Source: Myxococcales bacterium (GTDB lineage: Bacteria; Myxococcota_A; UBA9160; UBA4427). From it: 64,000 nucleotides of DNA. The notes under the pieces were generated by a model that was not told the origin of the DNA, searched no databases, and saw only the letters and a list, made by a program, of their open reading frames with translations. Made by a program: the position numbers and the translations under genes. The stretch is taken from contig JADFNE010000021.1 in assembly GCA_022563535.1 (NCBI GenBank), positions 1-64,000 of the forward strand. Reading direction: 5' to 3'. Shown piece by piece: positions 3,235-36,554 of the stretch. Within the stretch, counting starts at the first letter, position 1. Each line of letters starts with the position of its first letter.

Positions 3235-4494
3235 ATGACGGTTCTGACACTCAATACTCCCCGCGCCCGGGGACTCATGGTCTTGACCGCCCATCCCGAG
3301 GGTTGCCGGGTTCTCGCCGGTCGTCAGATAGCGCGCGCCCGGGCTGCATTCCCCAAGCCATTGGCAGCGGCCGAAGGCAAGACGGCGCTGATCCTGGGTA
3401 GCACCACTTTCGGTTATGGAAGTTCAACGGCCATCGCTCTCAAACAGGCGGGCTTTGCGAAGATCATCGGCCTGGGTTTCGAAACCCCACCCGCCTTCCG
3501 CAAGGACAAGGTCGCGATCGCTTCGGCGGGCTGGTACCTCACCTCGGCGTTGCACGGCGCTTATCCCGAGCAGCGAACCTACTTCGCCGACGGCTTCAGC
3601 GACCAGACCCGAGACCGGGTGATCGACGATCTGCGGGCGCGAGGCGAACGAATCGACCTGCTCCTGTACAGCGTTGCAGCGCCGCGCCGCAGTCACCTGG
3701 GGGAGACCTGGGGATCGGCGCTCAAGGTCATCGGCGAGCCGTACGACGTGCTGGGCCTCGACTACAAAAGTGGCGAGCACAAGGCGATGCAACTCGAACC
3801 CGCCAGTGAAATCGAAATTGAACACACCCGGCGCGTGATGGGCGGCGACGACCTGAACCTATGGACCAATGCCCTGCTCTACGCAGACCTCGCCAATCCG
3901 GGTTTCAAGGTTGCTGCGCTGAGCTATATCGGTCCCGACTTCGAACCCTTGCGCCGCATCTACTGGGACGGTGCACTGGGTGCGGCCAAGCAACACATCG
4001 ACTCGACGACCCGCTGCCTCAATGATCGGATCGCGGCACGTCTCGGCGGTGTTGCGTTTACCAGCATGAACCCCGCGGTCGTGACAGGAGCTTCGGTCTC
4101 AATTCCGGCCATGCTCAAGTACATCGTCGACTACCTCGGTGTGGTCGACAGCGGCACAGGCACCTATGACGATCCCCTGGAAGTAGGGCTCAACTTTGCG
4201 CGAGCACTCTACGGGGACGGAGAGCCCTGGCGTGAGAAGTTGGACGCCGAGGGTCGGCTGCGTCTCGACGACAACGAACTCGATCCAGAGCTTCAAGGAA
4301 AACTTCGCGATCTCTGGGAGTCGGGCAAGGAGGGCGAAGTTCCGGCGCTTACGGCGCGGGGTCTGGAACTGTTCAAGCAGGAGTTCATGCGACTCTATGG
4401 TTGGGAAGTAGAAGGAGTCGATTACGACGCCCCGGCAGATTTTGCTCCGGTTCTCGGCGAAGAGGAAGGTGTCATCCACCTGATCGACGAGTAG
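3235..4494 (+). CDS. fabV: FabV-type trans-2-enoyl-ACP/CoA reductase (NADH)
   Basis: 419 aa from ATG 3235, preceded by GGGAG six bases upstream; the open frame extends further back but is not coding-like. FabV reduces the 2,3 double bond of enoyl thioesters in the last step of fatty acid elongation and is the triclosan-tolerant alternative to FabI. The family Tyr-x8-Lys active-site pair is present as Y243 and K252 in YWDGALGAAK. The nucleotide-binding loop is GSTTFGYG (55-62) and AGWY follows at 98-101. YSVAAPRR at 145-152 and VMGGDD at 201-206 also match the family. Length is normal. The glycine loop is more divergent than in typical FabV. The 3' end overlaps the convergent glycosylase gene by 23 bp. 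Confidence 0.9.
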   Translation: MTVLTLNTPRARGLMVLTAHPEGCRVLAGRQIARARAAFPKPLAAAEGKTALILGSTTFGYGSSTAIALKQAGFAKIIGLGFETPPAFRKDKVAIASAGWYLTSALHGAYPEQRTYFADGFSDQTRDRVIDDLRARGERIDLLLYSVAAPRRSHLGETWGSALKVIGEPYDVLGLDYKSGEHKAMQLEPASEIEIEHTRRVMGGDDLNLWTNALLYADLANPGFKVAALSYIGPDFEPLRRIYWDGALGAAKQHIDSTTRCLNDRIAARLGGVAFTSMNPAVVTGASVSIPAMLKYIVDYLGVVDSGTGTYDDPLEVGLNFARALYGDGEPWREKLDAEGRLRLDDNELDPELQGKLRDLWESGKEGEVPALTARGLELFKQEFMRLYGWEVEGVDYDAPADFAPVLGEEEGVIHLIDE

Positions 4495-5140
4495 GGATCG
4501 GCTTGCTCAGGTATTGACTGGCGTCTGCACAGAAGCGGTAGGGCCGGTTTATGGCTTTGGAGATGCCGATTCGGGGGCAAGTGGCGAGAGTCAGTACTTC
4601 GAGTTGTTTTGGCGGGTGGCGCAGCGCGATGGGTTGGCCTCGGGCGATCGATTGCCCATCGTGCTCCGGCAGGATCTCGAATGCCTGCGTGAGGCGACCG
4701 GGGCCGGCAGCGATCAGCCTGAGGGAAGAGTCTGCCTTCAGCGATCGATTTCGTCGCATCTGCTCGATGCCCACCAACGGCTGGATCGCGCGAAGCAGGA
4801 CAGCGGCCGCCGTTCCTTTTGGTTCGCAGACCAAATTCGCACAGGCGTGGATTCCGTAGGAGCGATAGACGTAGAGATGGCCTGGGGGGCCGAACATGTT
4901 CCGGTTTCGGGCTGTTTCGCCGCGATGGGCATGTGAGGCGGGGTCCTGACCCCTGCCCAGGTAGGCCTCGACCTCGACGATTTGTCCGGCGAGAAGCCGG
5001 CCGTCCGTTGTGCGTCTTACGAGAATCAACCCGACCATTGCGGCCGCGACCTCGAGACACGAGCGCTCGAAGAAGTCTCGCCCGATGTACGAACCGAATT
5101 TCACCGGTTCCAGCGTACAACGGACTGATAAATCCTTCAT
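4472..5140 (-). CDS. DNA-3-methyladenine glycosylase (AAG/MPG family)
   Basis: 222 aa. Base-excision repair enzyme that removes alkylated purines such as 3-methyladenine. Family blocks are visible in order: an N-terminal FFERSCLEVAA segment, IVEVEAYLG (with the catalytic Glu and nearby Tyr of the family), DPASHA, the block ending MFGPPGHLYVYRSYG, and GPGRLTQAF near the C-terminus. Length fits the monofunctional family of about 200 aa. The gene is convergent with fabV and divergent from sucA, so it is probably transcribed alone. No strong ribosome site precedes the ATG at 5140, so the exact start is less certain than the identity. Confidence 0.9.
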   Translation of the reverse strand: MKDLSVRCTLEPVKFGSYIGRDFFERSCLEVAAAMVGLILVRRTTDGRLLAGQIVEVEAYLGRGQDPASHAHRGETARNRNMFGPPGHLYVYRSYGIHACANLVCEPKGTAAAVLLRAIQPLVGIEQMRRNRSLKADSSLRLIAAGPGRLTQAFEILPEHDGQSIARGQPIALRHPPKQLEVLTLATCPRIGISKAINRPYRFCADASQYLSKPIPTRRSGG

Positions 5141-5244
5141 GAAACTTGAGGTTGCGTACGTCTTCGCCGATATGTAGGAGGATGCCCCCCGGCCGAGTCG
5201 ACCCCGGGGCGAGCAGAAATTCGGGAGTAGCTGGCCGCAATACG

Positions 5245-8200
5245 ATGGCAGATTCGATTGGCGACATGACTCAAGATAGCAACGAAGACCCCACCCAGAT
5301 CCCCAATAAAGACACGGGCTCAGGCAAGGCGAAACAACCCACGCGGACCGGCGAGGGCGGCAGCTCCGAGAGTTTCGAAGAACCCATGGCTCCGCAATCG
5401 CCCTTCGCGTGTTTCGGAATCAACGCCGGCGTGGTGGAAGAAATTCACGAGACATTCCAGGTCGACCCGGGCGCGGTTGATGAAAGCTGGTCCGAAGAAT
5501 TCGACGACGGGCATTTGGACAACGGATCGAGACCGGCGACCACTCGGGTGACCAAGGTCAACGGTTCGGCGACACATCACGCGGTCGCGACATCGCCCCC
5601 GGGCCTGTCCGCACCGCAGCCCCAACAAGAATCTCAACCCCAGCCCAATCCAAACTGGCCCGTCCGCCCAAACCGGCGAAGCGACCACCTCGAATCCCAT
5701 TTGCTCGCGGCGGACAAGAATGCCCGGGTGCTGCGGTTGATTCACTCGTATCGCGCTCGCGGTCATCGCATCGCCAACAGTGATCCGCTGAGCAGCCAGA
5801 CCAAGTACTTCCCCGAACTCGATCCAGCTCATTACGGGCTTGGCAATCATGATCTCGACTATCCGTTCAGCACCGGGGATCTGCCCGGGGGTTCGGTTCA
5901 GACGTTGCGCGACATTCTGCAACGCTTGAAGTCCACCTACTGCAACAGCATCGGCGTCGAGTACACCCACGTTCAGGACCCGGGTCGCAAGCTCTGGCTT
6001 CAGCAACAAATGGAGCGCGACGAGAACCGCTTCCGCTGCGAGCCCGACCAGCTGCGGCGAATTTACGAGAAGTTGTGCAGAGCGGAGATCTTCGAACATT
6101 TTCTCCACAAAAAATTTCTGGGACAGAAACGTTTCTCGTTGGAAGGCGGCGAGGTCGTGATCCCCTTGCTCGATTACATCATCGAGCAAGCTCCCCGCTA
6201 CGGGATCGTCGAGTTCGTTCTGGGCATGAGTCACCGCGGGCGCCTGAACGTGCTCGCGAACGTCTTGCAGAAGCCCCTCGATCTCCTCTTCTCTGAGTTT
6301 CAGGACAGTCCGCTGCTCGATCTGCCCTTCGGTTCGGGGGACGTGAAGTACCACAAGGGCTATTCGAAAGATCGCCGAGTCGAAACGGGCGAACGCATTC
6401 ACCTCACCCTGACCTCCAATCCCTCGCACCTCGAAGCGGTGAATCCGGTCGTCGAGGGACGCACCAAGGCCAAGCAGGTCCGCATGGGAGACTTGGAGGG
6501 CAAAAAGATCGTGCCCATCATTCTGCACGGCGATGCCGCGTTTGCGGGCCAGGGAATTGTCGCGGAGACCTTGAACCTCGCGCAGCTCAAGGGCTATTCA
6601 ACCGGCGGAACCCTTCACATCATCATCAACAACCAGATCGGCTTTACCACGACCCCCGCCGAGGCGCGCTCTACGCTCTACTGTACAGACGTTGCGAAGA
6701 TGATTCAGATCCCGATCTTCCACGTGAACGGAGACGATCCAGAGGCGGTTCTCCGCTGCGCCGAATTGGCCATGCAGTACCGAGCCCGTTTCGGGGACGA
6801 CGTCGTGATCGACGTCATTGGCTATCGCCGCCACGGACACAACGAGGGCGACGAACCGGCCTTCACCCAACCACAACTCTACGCAAAGATTCGCAGTCGC
6901 CGCTCGGTGCGCCAACTGTTTGGAGAGGCACTCGCCGAGCGCGAAGAACTTGCTGCCTCAGAAGCGGAACAGATCGGGATCGCCGTGAGAGCAGACCTGG
7001 ATGCCGCGCTCCTGAACGCAAACGTCGGCTCGGTCGATCCCGCCGAGCCGAACGATCCCCAAGGTCCGTGGGTCGGTTTCGCACGCGTGGCTCCCGACGA
7101 CAATGTCGAAACGGCAGTTCCGATCGAGACCCTGGCCAGAATCGCCGAAGGTGTCGGCAGCGTACCCGACTACTTCAGGCCCCACGCCAAGCTGCGAAAC
7201 CTGTTGGACAGTCGGCGCCAATCCGTCGCCGATCGCGCGCCCATCGATTGGGGGATGGGCGAAGCACTCGCCTTCGGGAGCCTCTTGCTCGAAGGAGACC
7301 GGGTGCGGCTCTCGGGGCAAGACACATCGCGAGGCACCTTCAGTCATCGACATGCTGTGCTGGTCGACCAGGACAGCGGCGAGGAGTACACCCCGCTCGA
7401 TCATATTGCAGAGCGGCAGGGGCGCATCGATATCTATGACAGCCTGCTCTCGGAGGCAGCGGTACTGGGCTTCGAGTACGGCTACAGCCTGGCCGACCCC
7501 GGAACCCTCACCTTGTGGGAAGCCCAGTTCGGCGACTTCGCAAACGGCGCCCAGGTGATCATCGATCAGTTCATCTGCTCGGCCCACGTGAAATGGGGAC
7601 GCATGAGCGGACTCGTCATGCTCTTGCCCCACGGCTACGAAGGCCAGGGACCCGAACACTCGAGTGCGCGGATCGAGCGCTACCTGCAGACCTGCGCCGA
7701 GGATGCGATTCAGGTCGTCAACTGTACGAACCCCGCCCAGTACTTCCACGTGTTGCGACGGCAAATGCGAAGGACCTATCGCGCGCCATTGGTCATCTTG
7801 ACGCCCAAGAGCCTGCTGCGGCTCCCCGCCGCGACTTCCAGCATTGACGACTTCAGCAACGGCCGCTTCCAACACGTGATCGACGATGAACGAGCGGTAC
7901 ACGACGCGCAGGCTGTGCGCCGGGTGCTTCTGTGCAGCGGCAAGGTCTACTACGACCTAGTCGCAGAGCGAGAGAAGCGCTCAGCCAATGGACCCGGCAG
8001 TGTTGCGATCCTGCGGCTCGAACAACTCTACCCATGGCCCAGCATCCGGCTGAACGACTTGATCGCACAGTATCCGCGCACCGAGCGCGTAGTCTGGGTT
8101 CAAGAAGAACCCGCAAACATGGGTGCCTGGACATTTGTGCGCGAGCGAATTCAAGACCTGCTCTCTCCGTCCGCCAAACTCGCGTATGCGGGGCGTGTGC

Positions 8201-8289
8201 CGTCGGCGAGTACAGCCGTGGGATCGACTCGGCTCCATGGCCTGCAACAGGCTGCGTTGGTTCAGGCGGCCTTCGATGGGCTCGACTAG
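5245..8289 (+). CDS. sucA: 2-oxoglutarate dehydrogenase E1 component
   Basis: About 1014 aa if started at ATG 5245; ATG 5266 and ATG 5182 are alternatives, and the first 150 residues are low-complexity and poorly diagnostic. The thiamine diphosphate-dependent E1 decarboxylates 2-oxoglutarate and passes the succinyl group to the E2 lipoyl domain in the TCA cycle. Family motifs include the acidic N-terminal ESWSEEF segment typical of E2 binding, GMSHRGRLNVLAN, HGDAAFAGQG, GDDPEAV, YRRHGHNEGDEP and the C-terminal EEPANMGAW. No sucB or lpd follows: the next gene is convergent and overlaps by 4 bp. E2 and E3 must be encoded elsewhere. Confidence 0.95.
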   Translation: MADSIGDMTQDSNEDPTQIPNKDTGSGKAKQPTRTGEGGSSESFEEPMAPQSPFACFGINAGVVEEIHETFQVDPGAVDESWSEEFDDGHLDNGSRPATTRVTKVNGSATHHAVATSPPGLSAPQPQQESQPQPNPNWPVRPNRRSDHLESHLLAADKNARVLRLIHSYRARGHRIANSDPLSSQTKYFPELDPAHYGLGNHDLDYPFSTGDLPGGSVQTLRDILQRLKSTYCNSIGVEYTHVQDPGRKLWLQQQMERDENRFRCEPDQLRRIYEKLCRAEIFEHFLHKKFLGQKRFSLEGGEVVIPLLDYIIEQAPRYGIVEFVLGMSHRGRLNVLANVLQKPLDLLFSEFQDSPLLDLPFGSGDVKYHKGYSKDRRVETGERIHLTLTSNPSHLEAVNPVVEGRTKAKQVRMGDLEGKKIVPIILHGDAAFAGQGIVAETLNLAQLKGYSTGGTLHIIINNQIGFTTTPAEARSTLYCTDVAKMIQIPIFHVNGDDPEAVLRCAELAMQYRARFGDDVVIDVIGYRRHGHNEGDEPAFTQPQLYAKIRSRRSVRQLFGEALAEREELAASEAEQIGIAVRADLDAALLNANVGSVDPAEPNDPQGPWVGFARVAPDDNVETAVPIETLARIAEGVGSVPDYFRPHAKLRNLLDSRRQSVADRAPIDWGMGEALAFGSLLLEGDRVRLSGQDTSRGTFSHRHAVLVDQDSGEEYTPLDHIAERQGRIDIYDSLLSEAAVLGFEYGYSLADPGTLTLWEAQFGDFANGAQVIIDQFICSAHVKWGRMSGLVMLLPHGYEGQGPEHSSARIERYLQTCAEDAIQVVNCTNPAQYFHVLRRQMRRTYRAPLVILTPKSLLRLPAATSSIDDFSNGRFQHVIDDERAVHDAQAVRRVLLCSGKVYYDLVAEREKRSANGPGSVAILRLEQLYPWPSIRLNDLIAQYPRTERVVWVQEEPANMGAWTFVRERIQDLLSPSAKLAYAGRVPSASTAVGSTRLHGLQQAALVQAAFDGLD

Positions 8290-23540: not shown

Positions 23541-24554
23541 ATGTGCTCGCGAAGCTCGCGTTCTCACCGGAATCGAATCGAAGTCAAACCTTTGATCACT
23601 CTGGGACATCTTTCCGATCTCCACGCCACCGATCCGAGTCGGGCCAGTCTCGCCGCGCTGTCGAACAAGCGTTTCTTTGGCTGGCTCTCGTGGAATCTCC
23701 GACGCAGTCGCAACTACAAACGAGAGATTGCCACGGCCATGTTCGACGATCTCAAACGCGAGTCTCCGGATCATGTGGCGGTGACCGGTGACCTGATCAA
23801 CATTTCACTTCCTCACGAGTTCGAAGCTGCAGGGCGTATGTTGCGCACCCTTGGAAGTCCCGACTGGGTTTCGGTCGTGCCGGGCAATCACGACGCCTAT
23901 GTGAAGATGCCCTTCGAACGCGGGTGGGCACATTGGTTGCGCTACCTCGAGTCAGACCCCGCGGAGTCCGACAATGTGTCCAATTCAGCGGATACCGATG
24001 ACCATTCGAACATGTTCTCATTTCCGGGCAGGTTGCCAAGTGTGCGTATTCGCGGCGATCTTGCGCTTGTCGGCGTCTGCACGGCACTGCCGACAAAGCT
24101 CTTCGTGGCGGCGGGAAAGGTGGGAGCCAGGCAGCTCGAGCAGCTGGAAACGACCCTCGAAGCCCTGCGTGCGCGCGATCTTTGTCGCGTCGTCCTGGTG
24201 CATCACCCGGTGGTCGATGCGCACGTTTCGAAGCGACGTCGGCTGAGGGATTCGGCCGAGCTGCGTCGTGTTCTCGAGCGCGCGGGCGCCGAGCTGGTGA
24301 TCCACGGACACAATCATCGAAGTGAGTTCAAGACACTCGCTGGAAAGGACGGCGCCATTCCGGTCGTCGGCGTTCGCTCCGCGTCGTACGGCGGTACCAA
24401 TCCAGACAAGACTGCGCAGTATCACATCTATCAGTTCGAGCGCGCGACGGATCCCGAAGGCTCGCGCTTTCGGGTGTCGCTGCGCGTTCGAGAATGGGAT
24501 GCGGGGTCGCGGACGTTCGTCGAAATCGGGCAGGAGCGAACGCTACCGCTGTGA
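23541..24554 (+). CDS. Metallophosphoesterase (calcineurin-like)
   Basis: About 337 aa from ATG 23541; a TTG at 23592 is a possible shorter start. All metal-binding blocks of the calcineurin-like fold are present: GHLSDLHATD, VAVTGDLIN, VPGNHDAY, VLVHHPV and VIHGHNH. Enzymes of this family hydrolyse phosphomonoesters or phosphodiesters with a two-metal centre; some act on UDP-diacylglucosamine (LpxH) or cAMP. The order and spacing fit the broad family and not clearly LpxH. The neighbours on the other strand are kdsA and an NTP transferase. The convergent NTP-transferase gene overlaps its 3' end by 12 bp. Confidence 0.85.
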   Translation: MCSRSSRSHRNRIEVKPLITLGHLSDLHATDPSRASLAALSNKRFFGWLSWNLRRSRNYKREIATAMFDDLKRESPDHVAVTGDLINISLPHEFEAAGRMLRTLGSPDWVSVVPGNHDAYVKMPFERGWAHWLRYLESDPAESDNVSNSADTDDHSNMFSFPGRLPSVRIRGDLALVGVCTALPTKLFVAAGKVGARQLEQLETTLEALRARDLCRVVLVHHPVVDAHVSKRRRLRDSAELRRVLERAGAELVIHGHNHRSEFKTLAGKDGAIPVVGVRSASYGGTNPDKTAQYHIYQFERATDPEGSRFRVSLRVREWDAGSRTFVEIGQERTLPL

Positions 24555-25382
24555 AGGGGTTGAGCTTCGCTCGCGCTCGGCAAAGATGTTCTTGACGAGC
24601 TCCCAATCGCTCAGCTTGTCGACATCGACCGCGGCTTCGGCGGTCGGCATCTCCACCGCCGCAACGACAATCCCCACGACATCAGAAACTCGGCGAAAGG
24701 CCGCCGCCAGGTCGAGTCGCCGCGAGATGAACAACAGCAGTGAAACGAAGCCAAACGTGCTGACCATCCGCCAGGGCTGCTTTCGGTGCTGCTCGGCGCG
24801 GAGCCAGAAGTCCAAGATCTTGCGTGCTGCGGGGGTCATGAAGGCAAATAGATTGGCTCCGCTGTAACGCTCGCCGCGGAAGGGCAAGTAGGTTCGCTTT
24901 GCGTCGGGAAAGCGCCGGACGATCAGCGTTTCTGAGACCAGCCCCGCCACCATGTCGGCGCCCCCTGCGCAGGCGGCATCAAAGAAGTGGTCGAGCATCG
25001 CGTGGTCGAGCAGGGCGTGGTCGGCGGTGGTGACGAGCACGGGATTGCGGGTCTGGCCCGCCGGATTTTCGGCCTCGATCGCCTCAATTCCCGCCAGCAC
25101 ACTGCGGCTCGGCGACGATTCGGCGGGAAGCAGCCGCAGCTGGGATCGCGAAACCAGTTCGGCGACCCGGGGCACGCTCGTCATCAGATCCAGGGAGTCG
25201 CTGCACAGCAGGATCGCGCCAATACGCTCATGGGAGACCAGGATTTCGAGCACGCGAACCAACATGGGTATGCCCGCGATGTCGAGCAGTGCACGATGGG
25301 TGGCGCCGGCTGCGCGAGCGAGTTCGTCGTTTTCGTCTCTGCGTCCGGCGAGTACCAGAACATCAAAGCACGGGCTCGACAC
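24543..25382 (-). CDS. MobA-like NTP transferase-domain protein
   Basis: 279 aa from a GTG at 25382. The N-terminus VLVLAGRRDENDELAR followed by HRALLDIAGIPMLVRVL matches the sugar-nucleotide or cofactor guanylyl/cytidylyltransferase fold (GT-A). A TTADHALL segment gives the metal-binding acidic region. The substrate is not determined. It begins two bases after the end of kdsA and is almost certainly co-transcribed, which suggests a role with KDO or other LPS sugars. It is not KdsB, which is encoded elsewhere in the window at 45841. The C-terminal part ends in a moderately hydrophobic stretch (STFGFVSLLLFISRRLD). Confidence 0.72.
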   Translation of the reverse strand: MSSPCFDVLVLAGRRDENDELARAAGATHRALLDIAGIPMLVRVLEILVSHERIGAILLCSDSLDLMTSVPRVAELVSRSQLRLLPAESSPSRSVLAGIEAIEAENPAGQTRNPVLVTTADHALLDHAMLDHFFDAACAGGADMVAGLVSETLIVRRFPDAKRTYLPFRGERYSGANLFAFMTPAARKILDFWLRAEQHRKQPWRMVSTFGFVSLLLFISRRLDLAAAFRRVSDVVGIVVAAVEMPTAEAAVDVDKLSDWELVKNIFAERERSSTPSQR

Positions 25383-25383
25383 T

Positions 25384-26193
25384 CTACGCTTCTCGCCTCA
25401 CGCGGTCTAGCGCCCGAACTTCGCCCAACATTTGATCGAGCGCGGCAAACGTGATCTGACTGGGTCCATCACACAAGGCGTTCTCCGGGTCGGGATGTGC
25501 TTCGACGAAGAGCACGTCGATGCCGACCGCGACCGCGGCCCGGGCCAGCGGCGCCACGAATTCGCGGCTTCCCCCCGAAGCGCCACCCAGTGATCCGGGT
25601 TTTTGAACGGAGTGAGTGGCATCGAAACAAACCGGCGCAAACGCTCGCATCTCGATCAGGGCGGTCATGTCCGCGACCAGGTTGTTGTAACCGAATTGAG
25701 TACCGCGATCGGTGAGCAGAACATTTTCGCAACCGAAATGCTTGAGCTTCTCCACCAGGACGTTCATGTTCGATGGCGCGATGAACTGTCCCTTTTTGAC
25801 GTTCACGGGAAGTCCCGTGGCCGCACATGCAGCCAGCAAGTCCGTCTGGCGACACAAAAAAGCGGGTACTTGAATACAGTCGACGACTTGCGCGACGATC
25901 TCTGCCTGGTTCGGTTCGTGGATGTCGGTCAGCACAGGCAGCTTGGTTTCGCGCTTGACCGCGGCCAGCATTTCGAGTCCCGCTTCGATCCCAGGACCGC
26001 GGAAGGCAGTGACCTGGGAGCGATTGGCCTTGTCGAAGGAAGCCTTGAAGATGAGTGGCAAGTCGTGACGCGAGGCAATTTCGGCGATCGTACGAGCCGA
26101 AGCCAGCGCGCTCGACTCGTCTTCCAGGACATTGAGCCCCGCGATCAGGGCTAGCGGCGCTCCTCCGCCAATTTCGATTGAAGCGATCCGCAC
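25384..26193 (-). CDS. kdsA: 3-deoxy-D-manno-octulosonate-8-phosphate synthase
   Basis: 269 aa from GTG 26193, chosen because GGAGGGAG ends eight bases upstream; the frame extends to 26241 without a ribosome site. KdsA condenses arabinose-5-phosphate with phosphoenolpyruvate to KDO-8-phosphate for the LPS inner core. Family blocks are FKASFDKANRS, DIHEPNQAEIV, VPAFLCRQTDLL, VKKGQF, DRGTQFGYNNLV and FVEAHPDPENA. The metal-site position after AGL is Asn (GLNVLED), as in metal-independent enzymes. Kept with an NTP-transferase gene immediately downstream, while kdsD and kdsB are 20 kb away. Confidence 0.95.
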   Translation of the reverse strand: MRIASIEIGGGAPLALIAGLNVLEDESSALASARTIAEIASRHDLPLIFKASFDKANRSQVTAFRGPGIEAGLEMLAAVKRETKLPVLTDIHEPNQAEIVAQVVDCIQVPAFLCRQTDLLAACAATGLPVNVKKGQFIAPSNMNVLVEKLKHFGCENVLLTDRGTQFGYNNLVADMTALIEMRAFAPVCFDATHSVQKPGSLGGASGGSREFVAPLARAAVAVGIDVLFVEAHPDPENALCDGPSQITFAALDQMLGEVRALDRVRREA

Positions 26194-26265
26194 GTCTGTA
26201 ACTCCCTCCGGTCGAGATAAATCGCGCGGAGAGTAGGTCACGAGTCCCCAGGGGACAACAACCTG

Positions 26266-27530: not shown

Positions 27531-29861
27531 TTGGCTTCGGTAGATTGCTTTGGAGTGTCTACGTCTACCGAATTCGAGGATACCATCGAACCCGAGCGCG
27601 AATGCCATCTACCGCCATTTGCCAGGTGCAAGGACAGCGATCCTCAAGTGAATGACGACAGCACAGGCGACAAACGAGATTCTCGGATTTCCCGCGCCCG
27701 TGTGCAGTGGGGCATTGTGCTGTTGGCGTTTGCGGTGCGGTGCCTGCCCATTCGCAACGTATTCGTCGACGGACAGACACTCTTTACGGACAGCGATTCG
27801 TACTATCACCTGCGGCGCATCGCATACAACCTCGCCTCCTTTCCCGAGACACTCGAACACGATCCTTATCTGAACTTTCCGGCCGGCGCGCAAGCCATCT
27901 GGCCGCAAACCCTGGACTGGATTCTCGCGCTGTTGCTTCGGCCCTTCTACATTTTTGGAGGCGGCGCTCTGGGCGCTGGGCGCCAACAAGACTTCGAGCG
28001 TGTTCTGGTATGGCTTCCACCGATCCTCGGCGCGCTTACGGTGTGGCTTCTCTACCGAATTGCGCTGCGTCACTTTGGCGCGCGAGTCGCGCTTGTTTCA
28101 GCACTGGTTTTGAGTGTTCTTCCTGCCCACTTCTGGTACTCGCAAATTGGTTTCCTCGATCATCATGTGGTTGTGGCTTTAGGTGCGACCCTGCTGCTCG
28201 GCGCGACCATGGATCTGGTGCGTCGTTGTGGCGCGCGCGACACGCTGGTGGTCCCGGCGGCTGCCCTGGGCGCGTTGCTCGTCGCAAACTTGGCAATTTG
28301 GCCCGGAGCGCTTCTCTACGTCGCACTCGGCGAAGCTGCGATGCTGTCTCTATGGGTCGCGTCGCCGACGGTCGAGACGCGCAGGCGCGCCGTCGATTGT
28401 CTGTTGGTCGCAAATCTCACCGCCTTCGTGTTGATTGCGCCGTTCAGTTTCGGCAACCAATGGTCCGCGTGGGGCAGGTACAGCGCGGTTGTGCTCTCGA
28501 ACTTTCAACCCTGGTTCTTCGCGGTGCTGGCATTGTTCGCGGGAGCGGGTTCGCTGCTGTTTCACAGGGTGTCCACGGGATCCGCGTCGTTGCGAGTCGC
28601 CGCAATGCTGCCGATCGGCGTTGCATTGCTGGCAGCGAGTGTCGCGTTCATTCCCGAACTCGAGACGAGTGTGCGAGATTCGCTGCAATGGCTCGGCCGC
28701 ACCGACGCATTCCAGTCCATGGTGGGCGAGTCGGTTCCGTTGTTCGTCCTGCACGGTAAGTTCACCGGCGAGATCGCCTCGTCGCGGCTTTCTTACTTCA
28801 TATATTTGTTTCCGGCCGCGATCGCCTGGCTCTGTTTCGAGTGGCACACCCAGGGCAACCGTCCGGCGCTCTTTGGGTTCGTGGGATGGGCACTGGTTTT
28901 GTTCGTGTTCACGCTGTTGCAAAAGCGCTTCTTCAATACGTTCTCAATCGCATTGGCCCTCACCCTGGGCGCCACCCTGGTGAAGCTCTACGACGTACTG
29001 GGCGAGCGGTTCACCCTCGGTCGGAACCTGCGCATCGGATGCATGACCCTGGTTGCCATCGGTCTCCTCACTCCCAGTCTCGCGGTCTATCGCGGTGCCG
29101 TGGTCGGGATTGCGAGTGCGATCGGCGGCGTGTCGCCCGAGCCCAACTATCGAACTGAAGTAAATCTGGCGCGACGAGACATGACGACCTGGCTGCGTCA
29201 CCACACCCCCGACACTGCGGGCTACCTGGATTCTCAGGGCGAGCCCGAATACGGCGTGCTGGCACGCTGGGGGGAGGGGCACTTCATCAAGTACGTGGCG
29301 CGCCGACCCACGGTGATGGGAAATTTTGGCGACGATCTTGGACGCGATCATTTCTTGCTGGCCCGCAGTTTTTTTGACGCCGAACCCGAGCGCTCTTTCG
29401 AAATTCTCGAATCCCTGAAGGTTCGCTACGTGGTGATCCGTTCGATGTCGGAGTCGCGCAGCATGGCGACCGCCCTGTTCAACGGAGATGGATCGCGATT
29501 GGGTCGCTACCGCCTGCTTTACGAGGTTCGCGCGCTTTCTGGCACCCAGGTGCCTGCGTACAAAATCTTCGAGTTTGTGAAGGGAGTGGAACTCACGGGA
29601 AGCGCTCCCCCGCGCAGTCTTGTGGTGGCTGAACTCGAACTCGTGACCAATCTCGGGCGCGAAACCCGCTTTGAAATGGTGACCGAGGCCGACGCCTTGG
29701 GGCGCTATCGGCTGCAGCTCCCTTATTCGACCCGGGGTCGGCCCGAATCGACGCGCACCGCTGCGCGGTACCAGATTCGCGCAGGAGACTCGGTCGAAGA
29801 AGTTGCGATCGACGAGGCCGCGGTGCAGAGCGGTGCTCAGATCCCGGGTCCGAACTTCTGA
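27531..29861 (+). CDS. STT3-family oligosaccharyltransferase homologue (AglB/PglB-like)
   Basis: 776 aa from a TTG at 27531; GTG 27648 is a possible shorter start. STT3 proteins transfer lipid-linked glycans onto Asn residues in the periplasm. The N-terminal loop has the first acidic motif, D87-S-D89 in FTDSDSYYHLRR, followed by many membrane segments and a second conserved FLDHHVVVAL. The C-terminal soluble domain lies from about 530. The signature WWDYG is replaced by RWGEG at 579-583 (VLARWGEGHFIKYV), so the acceptor-Asn recognition site is changed. No glycan-synthesis genes are adjacent. The family call is firm; activity is not. Confidence 0.82.
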   Translation: MASVDCFGVSTSTEFEDTIEPERECHLPPFARCKDSDPQVNDDSTGDKRDSRISRARVQWGIVLLAFAVRCLPIRNVFVDGQTLFTDSDSYYHLRRIAYNLASFPETLEHDPYLNFPAGAQAIWPQTLDWILALLLRPFYIFGGGALGAGRQQDFERVLVWLPPILGALTVWLLYRIALRHFGARVALVSALVLSVLPAHFWYSQIGFLDHHVVVALGATLLLGATMDLVRRCGARDTLVVPAAALGALLVANLAIWPGALLYVALGEAAMLSLWVASPTVETRRRAVDCLLVANLTAFVLIAPFSFGNQWSAWGRYSAVVLSNFQPWFFAVLALFAGAGSLLFHRVSTGSASLRVAAMLPIGVALLAASVAFIPELETSVRDSLQWLGRTDAFQSMVGESVPLFVLHGKFTGEIASSRLSYFIYLFPAAIAWLCFEWHTQGNRPALFGFVGWALVLFVFTLLQKRFFNTFSIALALTLGATLVKLYDVLGERFTLGRNLRIGCMTLVAIGLLTPSLAVYRGAVVGIASAIGGVSPEPNYRTEVNLARRDMTTWLRHHTPDTAGYLDSQGEPEYGVLARWGEGHFIKYVARRPTVMGNFGDDLGRDHFLLARSFFDAEPERSFEILESLKVRYVVIRSMSESRSMATALFNGDGSRLGRYRLLYEVRALSGTQVPAYKIFEFVKGVELTGSAPPRSLVVAELELVTNLGRETRFEMVTEADALGRYRLQLPYSTRGRPESTRTAARYQIRAGDSVEEVAIDEAAVQSGAQIPGPNF

Positions 29862-30011: not shown

Positions 30012-31418
30012 GTGATTCTCAAGCAACAAGTCACTGACACACACCAAAAAGCACTGCAGGTCAATCTCGACCCACAGCGCTACGGAACTTTTGCAGAAAT
30101 TGGCGCCGGCCAGGAAGTCGCGCGGTGGTTTTTCCGCGTGGGCGGTGCGGCGGGAACGATCGCCAAGTCGATCTCCGCCTACGACATGAAAATCAGCGAT
30201 GCGATCTACGGCGCGTGTGACCGCTACGTGTCCCGCGAGAGACTCGAAGCGATGTTGGAGCGCGAACACAACCTGTGCATAGAACGCCTGGGCGCTGTGC
30301 GAGGCGATCAAACTGCCTTCTTTGCCTTCGCCAACACCGTGGTGGCCCAAAACTACAAGGGCACGAATCAATGCCACGGTTGGTTGGGGATTCGCTTCCA
30401 GAGCCGTCCCCGAGACGTTGACAATCAGATCGTCATCCATGTCTTGATGAAGGACAGTGAAGCGACGCTGCAGCAGGAGGCGCTCGGGATCGTCGGCGTC
30501 AACCTGGTCTACGGCGCATGTTTTCTGTTTCCGGAACCCGAAGTCTTGCTCCAATCGCTGCTCGACGCCCTGAGTACTGAGCGTATCGAGATCGATATGA
30601 TCGAATTCACGGGGATCGAGTTTCGGAAAGTCGAACAACGCTCGATGAGCTTGCGACTGGTGCAACTCGGCCTCAGTCGGGCCGCGATGTTTGGTCCGGA
30701 CGGCAAGGTGGTCCAGCCCGCCGCGGTCCTGCGCAAAAAACCGATCCTGGTCGAGCGGGGCAGTTTTCGTCCGGTTTCGAACGTGAACCTGGACATGATT
30801 CGTGCCGCGCGGGAAGAATTTTCTGCAGCAGATGATGTCGAGGAAGGAGACGTTGTCGAGTTGATGGAAATCACCATGAACAACTTGATGTCCGAGGGCG
30901 ACATCGATATCCGCGACTTTCTCCAGCGCGTAGACCTTCTCAGTGCGGTCGGGAAGGTGGTGATGGTCTCGGACTATTTCGAGTACTACCGCCTCGGTAG
31001 TTACTTCCGTCGTTATACCAATGCCCCGATCGGGGTCACGATGGGAGCGGGAAGCGTTTTGCAGCTGTTTGAAGAGAGGCACTACCAGGAACTCGATGGG
31101 GGCATCTTGGAGTCATTCGGGCGACTCTTTCAAAACAAACTGCGGATCTATGTCTATCCCTTTTTGGATCCCGACACGCTGAAGTTGCTCAAGGTCAAGA
31201 ATCTGAAGATTCCCAACAAGCTGAATCACCTGTTCAAGTATCTGGTCGAGCGGGGAATGATCTCACAACTCGAGAGCTACAACTCAGAGTGTCTGAGCAT
31301 CTTCTCCCGGGAGTTGCTCAAGAAGATCAGCACCGGTGACCATTCCTGGGAAGACTCCGTCCCCGAGGAAGTTTCTGATCTCATCAAAGAGCGCGGCTTC
31401 TTCCACTACAAGGAATAG
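30012..31418 (+). CDS. Conserved protein of unknown function
   Basis: 468 aa from GTG 30012, with GGAG eight bases upstream. Highly ordered, no signal peptide or membrane segments. The N-terminus has FAEIGAGQEVARWFFRVGG followed by TIAKSISAYDM, a segment I take to be diagnostic of a widespread bacterial family of unknown function. No enzyme motif is recognised. The 3' end overlaps the convergent heme A synthase gene by 13 bp. It is 150 bp downstream of the STT3 gene and could be read from the same transcript. Confidence 0.7.
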   Translation: MILKQQVTDTHQKALQVNLDPQRYGTFAEIGAGQEVARWFFRVGGAAGTIAKSISAYDMKISDAIYGACDRYVSRERLEAMLEREHNLCIERLGAVRGDQTAFFAFANTVVAQNYKGTNQCHGWLGIRFQSRPRDVDNQIVIHVLMKDSEATLQQEALGIVGVNLVYGACFLFPEPEVLLQSLLDALSTERIEIDMIEFTGIEFRKVEQRSMSLRLVQLGLSRAAMFGPDGKVVQPAAVLRKKPILVERGSFRPVSNVNLDMIRAAREEFSAADDVEEGDVVELMEITMNNLMSEGDIDIRDFLQRVDLLSAVGKVVMVSDYFEYYRLGSYFRRYTNAPIGVTMGAGSVLQLFEERHYQELDGGILESFGRLFQNKLRIYVYPFLDPDTLKLLKVKNLKIPNKLNHLFKYLVERGMISQLESYNSECLSIFSRELLKKISTGDHSWEDSVPEEVSDLIKERGFFHYKE

Positions 31419-32495: not shown

Positions 32496-33077
32496 TCACT
32501 TGCCGTGGCGGTTCCCAAACGATTCCGTCTGAAATTTCCAGAACTGTTGGGAACTCGCCCAGTAGTCCTCCGGCAGGTACGCTTTTTTGCGCAAGTGCTT
32601 CAAGAAATCGACCGGATCCGGGAGCTTCTCCCATACCGCTGGCAGAAACACACCGCGAGCGCTGGCATCCTGCAGGATCAGACCATCGATCCCGGGTCGG
32701 AGCTGGTTCAAGAGATCTTGTTCCGATTCGACGTCGAGCAACTCGGGCGGGCTGAGCACCGAGATTTCGATCTCGAGGGTATCGAGTTCATGAGCTTGCA
32801 GTGGCGAAAAGCGGGGATCCTTGTTGGCTGCGGCAAAGGCGCGCTCGGCGACGTCGATCACCAACGGCCGAGAACTCTCCACACTGCCGATGCAGCCGCG
32901 CAGCTCGCCATCGAGATGCAAGGTGACGAAGCAGGCTCGATCCGCGGTGAGGGCGGCGGAATAGTCGCTCACCGCGACCGACGCGGGCGCGCCGTGTGAA
33001 ACACCGCATTCGATCGAGCGGTGCGCGAGTTCGAGCAATATCTCGCGCTGCGGTTGATCGTAACGCTCACTCTGCAA
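32496..33077 (-). CDS. AmmeMemoRadiSam system protein A (AMMECR1 domain)
   Basis: 193 aa from a TTG start at 33077. The AMMECR1 domain spans nearly the whole protein: VTLHLDGELRGCIGSVE, DPRFSPLQAHELD, LEIEISVLSPPE and GVFLPAVWEKLPD. Function is unknown; the domain is usually linked with Memo and a radical SAM protein. It follows the Memo gene with a 9-bp gap, so the two are co-transcribed. No radical SAM partner is in the window. Confidence 0.9.
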   Translation of the reverse strand: MQSERYDQPQREILLELAHRSIECGVSHGAPASVAVSDYSAALTADRACFVTLHLDGELRGCIGSVESSRPLVIDVAERAFAAANKDPRFSPLQAHELDTLEIEISVLSPPELLDVESEQDLLNQLRPGIDGLILQDASARGVFLPAVWEKLPDPVDFLKHLRKKAYLPEDYWASSQQFWKFQTESFGNRHGK

Positions 33078-33086
33078 CGGTACTGG

Positions 33087-33938
33087 TTACCTTTCGCCCA
33101 ATGCTTGGACGAACGCCCAAGCTCCGTAGCCCACGACTCGGTCGTGACCGCCCTGGGTGTCACCCGAATTTCTGACGTCGAGAGTATGAACTGTAAGTTT
33201 CTTTTCCCTGGCGGTCAGCAGAAGACCCCTGGCCGCCACGCGACCGCAGGCGGATTCCCAATCGAGCAGGTCGGGTTGCAGGGTTTCGATCGCGCGGGTG
33301 GTCTCGGCGTCGCGCGCACGAGCTTCGGCGTACGAAAGGTAGTGACTCAAGTCGGAGCTGATCACGACAAGGGTCTCGTCTCCTCCCCAGAGTTCTTCGA
33401 GCACCTCGGCGACATCTTTGCCTTTGGCATCGCCGACTGAGAATGGGACGAGGGTGAAGCTCTCGAGCAAGATCTGGAGGAAGGGAAGTTGAACTTCCAA
33501 GCTGTGTTCATCGGCGTGGGCTTCGTCGTTGATCGACACCTGGGGAAGCTTCAACGATCGCAGTGTCGCCTCACGATCCAGCGGAATCTTGCCGAGCGGG
33601 GTTTCGAACGCTTCGGCTGAACTCGCACCCAGGCCTTCGAGGGGAACCCGATGAGAGGGACCGAGCAGGACGACCCGTTTGATCTCTTTGCGTCGCGGAA
33701 CCAGGTGACGGTACGCCGACGCAGCGATGGGCCCCGAAAAGCGAAAGCCCGCATGAGGCACGATCAACGCTTTGGGAGAGAGGGTCGTTGGGGCTTGCTC
33801 GGTCTCGGAGTCTGTTTTGGCCGCAGTTTTGGCCGCAGTTTCGGCATCGTCGAGAAATCCGCGCACCTCACGCTCGAGCGACCGGGGGTCGTCCGGATAA
33901 AAGAAGCCTGCGACGCTGGGCGGGCGGACCGTAGCCAC
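33087..33938 (-). CDS. AmmeMemoRadiSam system protein B (Memo family)
   Basis: 283 aa from GTG 33938; the frame extends upstream into the opposite-strand gene and is not coding there. The Memo fold resembles class III extradiol dioxygenases with three metal-type His/Asp/Cys positions. Visible blocks are PHAGFRFSGPIAASAY, LLGPSHRVP, EHSLEVQLPFLQ and ISSDLSHYLSY. Eukaryotic MEMO1 binds copper and iron and is oxidoreductase-like. A 12-bp unit (33814-33837) repeats in tandem inside the gene and encodes AAKT twice. Divergent from the PEP-synthase-like gene. Confidence 0.9.
   Translation of the reverse strand: MATVRPPSVAGFFYPDDPRSLEREVRGFLDDAETAAKTAAKTDSETEQAPTTLSPKALIVPHAGFRFSGPIAASAYRHLVPRRKEIKRVVLLGPSHRVPLEGLGASSAEAFETPLGKIPLDREATLRSLKLPQVSINDEAHADEHSLEVQLPFLQILLESFTLVPFSVGDAKGKDVAEVLEELWGGDETLVVISSDLSHYLSYAEARARDAETTRAIETLQPDLLDWESACGRVAARGLLLTAREKKLTVHTLDVRNSGDTQGGHDRVVGYGAWAFVQALGER
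33814..33846. repeat. Tandem 12-bp repeat inside the Memo gene
   Basis: The unit gttttggccgca (33814-33825) is repeated exactly at 33826-33837 and partly at 33838-33846. It is in frame and adds Ala-Ala-Lys-Thr copies to the Memo protein in a linker. It could vary in copy number between strains. Confidence 0.7.
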
Positions 33939-34118
33939 CGACCTAGTCTGAACACCTAAACCCTTCCGGTCAAGCGCGAAGATGGATTTCGGCCCGGGCT
34001 CGCAGTGTCCCGGGTTGTCATATGCCCTCGAACGGTGCAAGGTTCCGACCGATGTGTTGCCTATCTCCAGGAGTCGCGCAGACCGCGGTTTCAACGCCTC
34101 GGTGATGAATTTCCAATC

Positions 34119-36554
34119 ATGAATCCCGTCATTTTTCGACTGGAAGACATTCGCGACGAACTCGTCGGCGGCAAGGCCGCCGGCCTCGCGCAGCTGCACG
34201 GCATGGGGCTTTGCGTACCCGCGGGCTTCGCAATCCTGGGCGCGACTCCGGACAACCTGCCGAGCGATCTGGCGCATCACTACCGAGAACTCGGCGGGGG
34301 CAAGGTCGCGGTGCGTTCGTCGGCGCTCGACGAAGACGGCGGTGAGGCATCCTTCGCCGGGCAGTACGAGACCCTGCTCAACGTCGAAGGCGATGAGGCC
34401 GTGGCTCGCGCCGTGGTTCAATGCCTGGAGTCGCTTTCCGCCGCGCGGGCGGGTGCCTATCGCGCACGCCTGGGTGGGGACGACGCTGGGCAAGCGAATA
34501 TGTGTGTGGTGGTTCAAAGAATGATCGAAGCGCGCGCGGCTGGGGTGCTCTTTACCGTCGACCCTGTGAGTCACCGCCGGGCACACGCGGTGATTGACGT
34601 CGTGCCGGGGTTGGGGGAAGCGTTGGTCAGCGGCTTGGAAACCCCCGACCACTACGTGCTCGATCGCAGAGGCGAGGTGCTGCGCGCCGATCTGGTGGGC
34701 GATCGGGCGATCCTTGAACCCGAGAGTCTGCGCAAACTACTCGCCGAAGCGATTCGAGCGGAGGCACGGCGAGGCACTCCTCTCGATCTCGAATGGGCCA
34801 TCGACGCCGACGACCAGATCTGGTGGCTTCAAGCTCGCCCCATTACAACCCTCGGACCGGATCTGAACGAACTCGATACCGAGAGGATCGACGCCAGCCA
34901 CGTCTATACCCGTTGCAACATCGGAGAGATGTTCCCGGGCGTCTGTACCCCGCTCTCCTATTCGTTTACGGCACGGGGCATCGACGTGGGCATGCAGCGT
35001 ATGCACATTCGGGTGGGGGTGCAGGACGAACTGGTGAAAGATTTCAAGTTCATCGCGATGTCCTATGGGCATCTCTTTCTCAACCTCACCACTTTGAGTG
35101 ATGCGTCGAGCCAGACGTTCGGCGGAGATTCGAGCAGCCTCACGCTTTCGCTTTGTGGCCGCATCATCACCGATCCTGAAATCGTCATGAAGCCGCCGCC
35201 GCCCTGGCCGCGCAGGCTCAAGAACCTCGCGGGCTACTTCGTATACATGCTCGGGCAACGCCGAGCGCGACGATCACTCAAGGCGTTGATTGCCGAGCTG
35301 CACTTTGCTCCCGCCGATGGGAGTGCCGCGGCGATGTGGCGCGCGATCGACGACAAGTTTGACGCAATCTTCGATGCGATGGATTGGCATCTGGTTTCGT
35401 CGGCGACCTCGGGCATCATGGCGCCGATACTCTTGGGAATCGTCGCCCAGGGAGACGAGCCCGGTCCGGATCATCACAGCGAAGTCGCAGCTCTGCTCGC
35501 CGGAGCCGAGGGCGTCGAAAGTGTCGATATCGCCGAAGGCGCGGTTCGCATTCAGGACGCAGCCCTCGCTCAACCCGGCGCTGCCGAACAATTGGCCGGG
35601 CTGGACGATCACGCTGCGCTTGCGTGGTTGATGGGCAGCGAGTCCGCAGCAGTGGGTCGCGAATTCCGCCGCTACCTCGATCGTCATGGACATCGCGCGA
35701 TCAAGGAACTCGAACTGCGACAACCCGAATGGCGCGAAGACCCGCTGCCCTTGGTGACGGCGCTCAGGGTCAGCTGCCGCGCGAGGTTGCTGGATCGAGA
35801 TGCACAAAAACCACTTGCAATCCGAAGCCGCGCGCATCAGCCGGACCGGACTGCGCGAGAAGAGGGCAGCGACAAAGGTCTATTTCTTCGTTTGTTACTG
35901 GGGCCATTGGTTCGTCTGGCACACCAGACCGTGCGCTCGCGGGAAGAAACCAAGTCGGGTTTGGTCGCCGTCACCGCGCGCTTCAAACAGGGGTACCGCG
36001 AACTTGCGCGCAGATTGGTGGCCGAAGGTCTCTTACCCGACGAAGATGCGGTCTTTTTCTTGTTTCACGAAGAACTCGGAGCGCTGTTTTCGGGAGACGC
36101 ATCGGGGCTCGCCCGTGCGGCGGTTGATCGACGCAGCGTTTTCGACGCCCAGGCTGCCCTGCAATTTGCCGATGTCTTTGTGGGCGAGCCGGTACCGATC
36201 GTTCCAGAACTGCCGGACGATCTCGAGGGCCACTTCGTCACTGGAACGTCGGTTAGCCGTGGCGTGGTCGTGGGAATCGCTCGGGTGGTCCATACACCCG
36301 CCGAAGCCGAGTCACTGGAGAGCGGTGAAATCTTGATCGCACCCATAACCGATGTCGGCTGGACGCCATACTTCAGCATGATCTCGGGATTGGTGACGGA
36401 TGTTGGAAGCGCCGTGTCTCACGGCGCCGTCGTCGCGCGGGAATTCGGCCTGCCCGCCGTGGTCAATACCCGCTTCGCCACCCAGTTGTTCAAATCTGGC
36501 GATCGTATCGTACTCGACGCGGACCGCGGCCTGGTTCGGTTGGCCGACGACTGA
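34119..36554 (+). CDS. PEP synthase/rifampicin phosphotransferase-like enzyme
   Basis: 811 aa from ATG 34119. Three-part architecture: an N-terminal ATP-grasp domain (VGGKAAGLAQLHG, KVAVRSSALDEDG, FAGQYETLLN, AGVLFTVDPVS, VPGLGEALVSG), a long middle domain (about 320-700) and a C-terminal swivelling His domain with SHGAVVAREFGLPAVV. ATP-grasp plus His domain fits enzymes that pyrophosphorylate or phosphorylate a substrate. The order and the Ser-His-Gly context are closer to rifampicin phosphotransferases than to true PEP synthase. Substrate is not determined. Divergent from the Memo gene, upstream of a PQQ dehydrogenase with a 47-bp gap. Confidence 0.78.
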   Translation: MNPVIFRLEDIRDELVGGKAAGLAQLHGMGLCVPAGFAILGATPDNLPSDLAHHYRELGGGKVAVRSSALDEDGGEASFAGQYETLLNVEGDEAVARAVVQCLESLSAARAGAYRARLGGDDAGQANMCVVVQRMIEARAAGVLFTVDPVSHRRAHAVIDVVPGLGEALVSGLETPDHYVLDRRGEVLRADLVGDRAILEPESLRKLLAEAIRAEARRGTPLDLEWAIDADDQIWWLQARPITTLGPDLNELDTERIDASHVYTRCNIGEMFPGVCTPLSYSFTARGIDVGMQRMHIRVGVQDELVKDFKFIAMSYGHLFLNLTTLSDASSQTFGGDSSSLTLSLCGRIITDPEIVMKPPPPWPRRLKNLAGYFVYMLGQRRARRSLKALIAELHFAPADGSAAAMWRAIDDKFDAIFDAMDWHLVSSATSGIMAPILLGIVAQGDEPGPDHHSEVAALLAGAEGVESVDIAEGAVRIQDAALAQPGAAEQLAGLDDHAALAWLMGSESAAVGREFRRYLDRHGHRAIKELELRQPEWREDPLPLVTALRVSCRARLLDRDAQKPLAIRSRAHQPDRTAREEGSDKGLFLRLLLGPLVRLAHQTVRSREETKSGLVAVTARFKQGYRELARRLVAEGLLPDEDAVFFLFHEELGALFSGDASGLARAAVDRRSVFDAQAALQFADVFVGEPVPIVPELPDDLEGHFVTGTSVSRGVVVGIARVVHTPAEAESLESGEILIAPITDVGWTPYFSMISGLVTDVGSAVSHGAVVAREFGLPAVVNTRFATQLFKSGDRIVLDADRGLVRLADD

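Follow-up and report, generated by a model that had tools for sequence, protein, structure and literature searches.

Catalytic residues are conserved and the WWDYG motif is replaced in a clade of AglB-long-like proteins that includes a gene of a Myxococcales bacterium

The 64,000-nucleotide stretch of DNA that was analysed (the window) carries, at 27531..29861 on the forward strand, a gene for a predicted STT3/AglB-long-like membrane glycosyltransferase in which the WWDYG motif of archaeal, bacterial and eukaryotic oligosaccharyltransferases reads RWGEG. Loss of WWDYG is clade-wide among the homologues in the phylum, their catalytic residues being nearly frozen, and is not the oddity of one gene. 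Whether these proteins represent a large bacterial AglB-like clade, with several paralogous subfamilies, in which the catalytic centre was kept, the N-x-S/T pocket replaced and a different acceptor rule acquired is in our judgement about evenly poised. A clade that lacks WWDYG but has near-frozen catalytic residues would show natural evolution parting chemistry from acceptor choice. Two questions then become open to test, namely where in the enzyme the sequon rule is set and whether a +2 Ser/Thr is indispensable to a lipid-linked oligosaccharyltransferase; such an enzyme could also help glycoengineering.

The open reading frame extends over 776 codons from a TTG, from which all residues are numbered here. 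This TTG is probably not the true start, which would lie further downstream, because similarity sets in only at residue 30 with the nearest orthologue and near residue 60 with most others. Pfam places the STT3 N-terminal membrane region at 27765..28463 (+) (residues 79-311; E 4e-10; 40.2 bits against a cut-off of 24.5), and the hydropathy profile has 14 hydrophobic segments, all N-terminal of residue 521, after which the C-terminal part is soluble. This part comprises an AglB_core-like domain at 29214..29441 (+) (residues 562-637; E 2.3e-7, above the cut-off) and, at 29583..29843 (+), the peripheral domain AglB_L1 (residues 685-771; E 2.7e-18; 66.3 bits against a cut-off of 23.6), otherwise a feature of archaeal AglB-long. 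The closest solved protein by sequence is Archaeoglobus fulgidus AglB-L (AfAglB; phmmer, E 2e-20), and a profile of 27 relatives searched against the PDB found AfAglB at E 1e-69, human STT3A at 1e-12 and yeast STT3 at 4e-9. Judged by these similarities, the protein is a member by descent of the STT3/AglB/PglB (GT66) superfamily, within which archaeal AglB-long is closest to it. The only NCBIfam match is to the archaeal AglB model TIGR04154, whose name refers to the archaeosortase system; at 312.8 bits it stays below the curated cut-off of 450, and thus we have not filed the protein under TIGR04154. Nor have we filed it as a canonical N-x-S/T oligosaccharyltransferase, since WWDYG is absent.

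The catalytic centre agrees with that of A. fulgidus AglB-L (3waj, 5gmy, 7e9s), with which the protein shares the membrane STT3 domain, the first-DXD Asp, the DHH motif, the TIXE-type Glu, the phosphate-site Arg and both the AglB core and AglB_L1 domains. In AfAglB the metal is described as held by the first-DXD Asp, the DHH Asp and the second His, with the TIXE Glu joining through a water molecule (PMC8342417). The first acidic motif, DSD, lies at 27789..27797 (+) (residues 87-89), and its Asp89, aligned with the metal ligand Asp47 of AfAglB, is Asp in all 96 readable homologues. The DHH motif, which would supply metal ligands by alignment, is found at 28158..28166 (+) (residues 210-212), its Asp being kept in 98/98 readable homologues, the first His in 95/98 and the second in 97/98. 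Conservation of these two motifs had already been noticed in a reading of the sequence alone, and it holds; Glu400, which that reading had not mentioned, is present as well. It belongs to the EL5 element VGES at 28722..28733 (+) (residues 398-401), aligns with Glu360 of the TIXE motif and is Glu in 96/96 readable homologues, although a literal TIXE or SVSE tetrad is absent from the window protein, where residues 397-400 read MVGE. Finally, Arg466 (28926..28928, +), whose aligned counterpart in AfAglB, Arg426, lies near the lipid phosphate, is Arg in 93/96. A decaying or non-enzymatic paralogue would fit the loss of the recognition motif, yet catalytic residues that are invariant or nearly so over some 96 rows, a reading frame without interruption in each of the four genus members sampled and a replacement motif conserved throughout the window's subfamily leave this explanation barely credible.

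The replacement, RWGEGH, is located at 29265..29282 (+) (residues 579-584). In phmmer, and also with the 27-sequence profile, it aligns to WWDYGH of AfAglB-L, and the profile places it opposite WWDYGN of the short A. fulgidus AglB C-terminal domains 3vgp and 3vu0; with this profile the alignment to the WWDYG site is secure. An STT3 homologue without WWDYG, with RWGEG at residues 579-583, is exactly what the sequence-only reading had reported, and phmmer and the profile alignment bear it out to the residue. RWGEGH occurs in 4 rows, those of the window gene and of the orthologues from three further genomes of its genus, and is therefore not a sequencing error. The same reading would have given up the novelty if the closest homologues shared RWGEG and were shown to glycosylate N-x-S/T; the first half of this holds, as they do read RWGEG.

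We then have a broader count over the phylum, from 99 rows, namely the distinct homologous ORFs, window gene included, of 160 loci that are part of the homologue places listed. Rows were kept at E 1e-8 with a profile of the WWDYG-less family plus AfAglB, and duplicates were dropped by a core-string test; this filter leans to the WWDYG-less family, and three PglB-like enzymes found by PF02516 fall outside it and are counted separately. Gaps at the motif affect 3/99 rows. In the 96 homologues readable at the site, WWD is found in none and both Trp in one; the first Trp is kept in 2/96, the second in 52/96 and the Asp in 10/96, the Gly in 94/96 and the following His in 89/96. The DGGK motif that in PglB follows WWDYG is not present in the window protein either, its position being occupied by the lineage motif NFGDD at 29322..29336 (+) (residues 598-602). 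Over the whole WWDYG/DGGK region the window's 35-member subfamily has a signature of its own, W-x-x-G-H...[N/G]FG, where [N/G]FG comes about 14 residues past the Gly-His; FG is found in 35/35 rows and NFGDD in 23/35. Possession of such a conserved signature suggests that the recognition site was rebuilt and not left to decay, and a conserved motif beside the putative acceptor site argues for altered selection over loss of function.

WWDYG has been described as strictly conserved in N-oligosaccharyltransferases, and the changes W457S, W457R (in a double mutant), Y460N and G461D left Campylobacter jejuni PglB inactive (PMC3527161). Arginine at this position is thus not expected in a canonical enzyme. 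It may still be supposed that N-x-S/T is glycosylated, the Ser/Thr being held by other residues and RWGEG being a tolerated lineage variant; the second Trp and the Gly are indeed kept in the window's subfamily, and methanogen AglBs include WWDNG variants (PMC5131992). Yet that variant retains WWD, as do all our five references (AfAglB, the Halocatena AglB and three PglB-like proteins of the phylum), and, together with the inactivating changes of C. jejuni PglB, among them W457R in the double mutant (PMC3527161), this makes continued N-x-S/T specificity rather improbable.

The sequence-only reading had also regarded a large STT3-like enzyme as uncommon in such a lineage, and here it was mistaken: an STT3 homologue is found in 41/60 sampled relatives, often as several paralogues, and the window's genome has three copies, the two besides the window gene being on the separate contigs C51 and C13. 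Active deltaproteobacterial PglBs have, moreover, been published (PMC4894442), and some bacterial STT3 sequences have been placed inside the euryarchaeal AglB clade (PMC4973528). Bacterial STT3 homologues are thus already known, while a WWDYG-less bacterial clade is apparently undescribed in the open-licence literature searched, where the titles and abstract openings (bioRxiv left aside) gave no paper on one. Campylobacter and Desulfovibrio PglB resemble the window protein in being bacterial single-subunit enzymes of GT-C architecture; PglB has WWDYG, DGGK and the MI motif (PMC8342417, PMC3703281), whereas the window protein has neither a literal WWDYG nor DGGK. When all ORFs of the same loci were scanned for WWDYG-like strings, three distinct proteins were recovered, all of family f46 from the same phylum (L126 of genome G238, L127 of G206 and L129 of G226), reading WWDFG or WWDYG, and L126 and L127 also have a DGSK or DGGK loop. 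Since the scan does recover the motif in f46 proteins, its absence elsewhere is not an artefact of method.

One and the same PF02516 search finds both these PglB-like proteins and the window family, and in a 29-row IQ-TREE phylogeny a branch with support 97/92 splits the five WWD rows (AfAglB, Halocatena AglB and the three f46 proteins) from the 24 WWDYG-less rows, the motif columns being included in the alignment. The f46 proteins join further from the WWDYG-less rows than the two archaeal AglBs. A 101-row FastTree, built after three partial rows and one very weak row had been dropped, resolves two large subfamilies within the window's order: the window gene falls in one of 35 rows, marked by xWxxGH and with the Trp in 33 of them, and the C51 and C13 copies of the same genome fall in another of 41 rows, mostly without Trp. 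At locus L038 of genome G008 (3604-8254) two STT3-like genes, one of each subfamily, stand head to head, their matched stretches being only some 80 bases apart. A plasmid search for homologues gave two haloarchaeal matches only. The STT3-domain protein of a Salinibaculum sp. KK48 plasmid (L172, 1800-4160) also seems to lack WWDYG, reading DWGRNR, at a site whose alignment is uncertain; unlike the window protein it is archaeal and sits on a very long branch.

A whole-protein AlphaFold model built from four sequences (pLDDT 63, pTM 0.57) best matches AfAglB and then eukaryotic STT3 and PglB. Local confidence at RWGEG is poor, and for this reason the model was not used for pocket geometry and the C-terminal domain was modelled alone. 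The model of residues 535-776 (pLDDT 79.7, pTM 0.81) superposes on AfAglB (7e9s) with Z 21.9 and an rmsd of 3.5 over 232 residues; as modelled, the C-terminal domain has the AglB fold. Identity to AfAglB over the structurally aligned C-terminal domain is about 32%, and WWDYG, TIAE and NPFQ of AfAglB correspond to RWGEG, MVGE and NFGDD. RWGEG (model residues 45-49) is placed where a strand (41-43) meets a helix (46-56), and WWDYG of AglB, too, has a helix after it (PMC3703281).

The C-mannosyltransferase DPY19 (7zlg) has a related fold in the C-terminal core and appears in the structural comparisons of both models, with Z 12.5 and an rmsd of 2.9 over 123 residues for the C-terminal one and Z 15.3 for the whole protein. 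Perhaps, then, another protein side chain (Trp, Ser or Thr) is modified in the manner of DPY19, which has no sequon pocket. However, both sequence and structure appear nearer to AglB, with its higher structural score (Z 21.9), and the window family shows little or no variation in its metal ligands. DPY19, on the other hand, is not known to need a metal, and we regard this alternative as highly improbable.

The explanation that we favour, to which we give slightly less than even weight, is a functional AglB-long-like transferase that would use a lipid-linked glycan, with the +2 Ser/Thr pocket rebuilt and the acceptor probably an Asn in a non-canonical context. A divalent ion held by Asp89, Asp210 and His212 would activate a glycan linked to polyprenyl phosphate or diphosphate on the periplasmic side, and Asp89 and Glu400 would position and activate the acceptor as in oligosaccharyltransferases. 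For AglB it has been proposed that the first-DXD Asp and the TIXE Glu handle the carboxamide of the acceptor Asn, and the Ser/Thr is held by WWDYG together with DK/MI (PMC8342417). A DK/MI pattern search gave no match in the window protein; it gave none in the canonical controls either and is thus uninformative. With the carboxamide-handling residues kept and WWDYG lost, an amide-type acceptor without the +2 rule would be expected: the +2 pocket being gone, the remodelled WxxGH...NFG surface would choose the acceptor, most likely a protein Asn whose sequence context differs from, or is looser than, the canonical N-x-S/T. That the enzyme may act on a different site or acceptor had been proposed from the sequence alone, and this is a reasonable suggestion given an otherwise intact catalytic site without WWDYG, a combination from which we infer a working transferase with another acceptor rule.

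The metal/Glu centre would, nonetheless, also serve another nucleophile. The main rival to an Asn acceptor is a transferase recruited from an AglB-type ancestor that passes its lipid-linked glycan to a non-protein acceptor (a polysaccharide, a lipid A-type lipid or another lipid-linked glycan). Such recruitment would be expected to entail loss of the peptide pocket, in keeping with the lack of WWD in 96/96 readable rows, and the whole-protein model resembles ArnT and arabinosyltransferases as well, at lower Z. In addition, the more distant homologues lie near GT2 and PMT_2 glycosyltransferases, sulfatases and methyltransferases, like surface-glycan genes. Against this, Glu400, aligned with the proposed acceptor-amide residue of oligosaccharyltransferases, does not vary, the protein still has the AglB core and P1 domains, and in the window's own genus the gene stands alone among unrelated housekeeping genes. 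We therefore hold a non-protein acceptor to be unlikely, while taking it more seriously than the other alternatives to an Asn acceptor.

Two further points count against the favoured explanation: the TIGR04154 score is below its cut-off, and the gene lies outside any glycan cluster, with neither a target protein nor a partner conserved beside it in the compared loci. Genomic context was rejected as a clue to the acceptor, there being no neighbour common to all compared loci and the wider neighbours fitting more than one reading. A second association was also discarded. When the lists for the 60 relatives were compared by hand, exosortase was found in 41/41 STT3-positive genomes and STT3 was missing from 5/5 exosortase-free relatives; in the phylum sample, exosortase is found in all 34 STT3-positive members of the order and in the one other STT3-positive member of the class, but in 0/20 STT3-positive genomes outside the class. 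The co-occurrence thus vanishes outside the class, and a functional dependency of STT3 on exosortase was rejected for this reason. The window's genome itself has five exosortase (PF09721) matches (L161-L165).

A few neighbours of the gene deserve mention in their own right. On its 3' side and on the same strand, 30012-31418 (+) encodes a protein of 468 residues for which Pfam gives nothing up to E 1 and NCBIfam a single match at chance level; it holds this position here and in genome G002 (L078), but no member of its family turned up in the loci of G001 and G003. Further on, 32496-33077 (-) encodes an AMMECR1 / AmmeMemoRadiSam system protein A (Pfam, NCBIfam), and the adjoining 521-residue ORF at 33087-34652 (-) appears Memo-like in its C-terminal part when its sequence is read by itself. 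On the other side of the gene, at 24543-26241 (-), a MobA-like NTP transferase lies beside a KDO-8-phosphate synthase, and this NTP transferase scores under the curated cut-offs of the CMP-KDO synthetase models.
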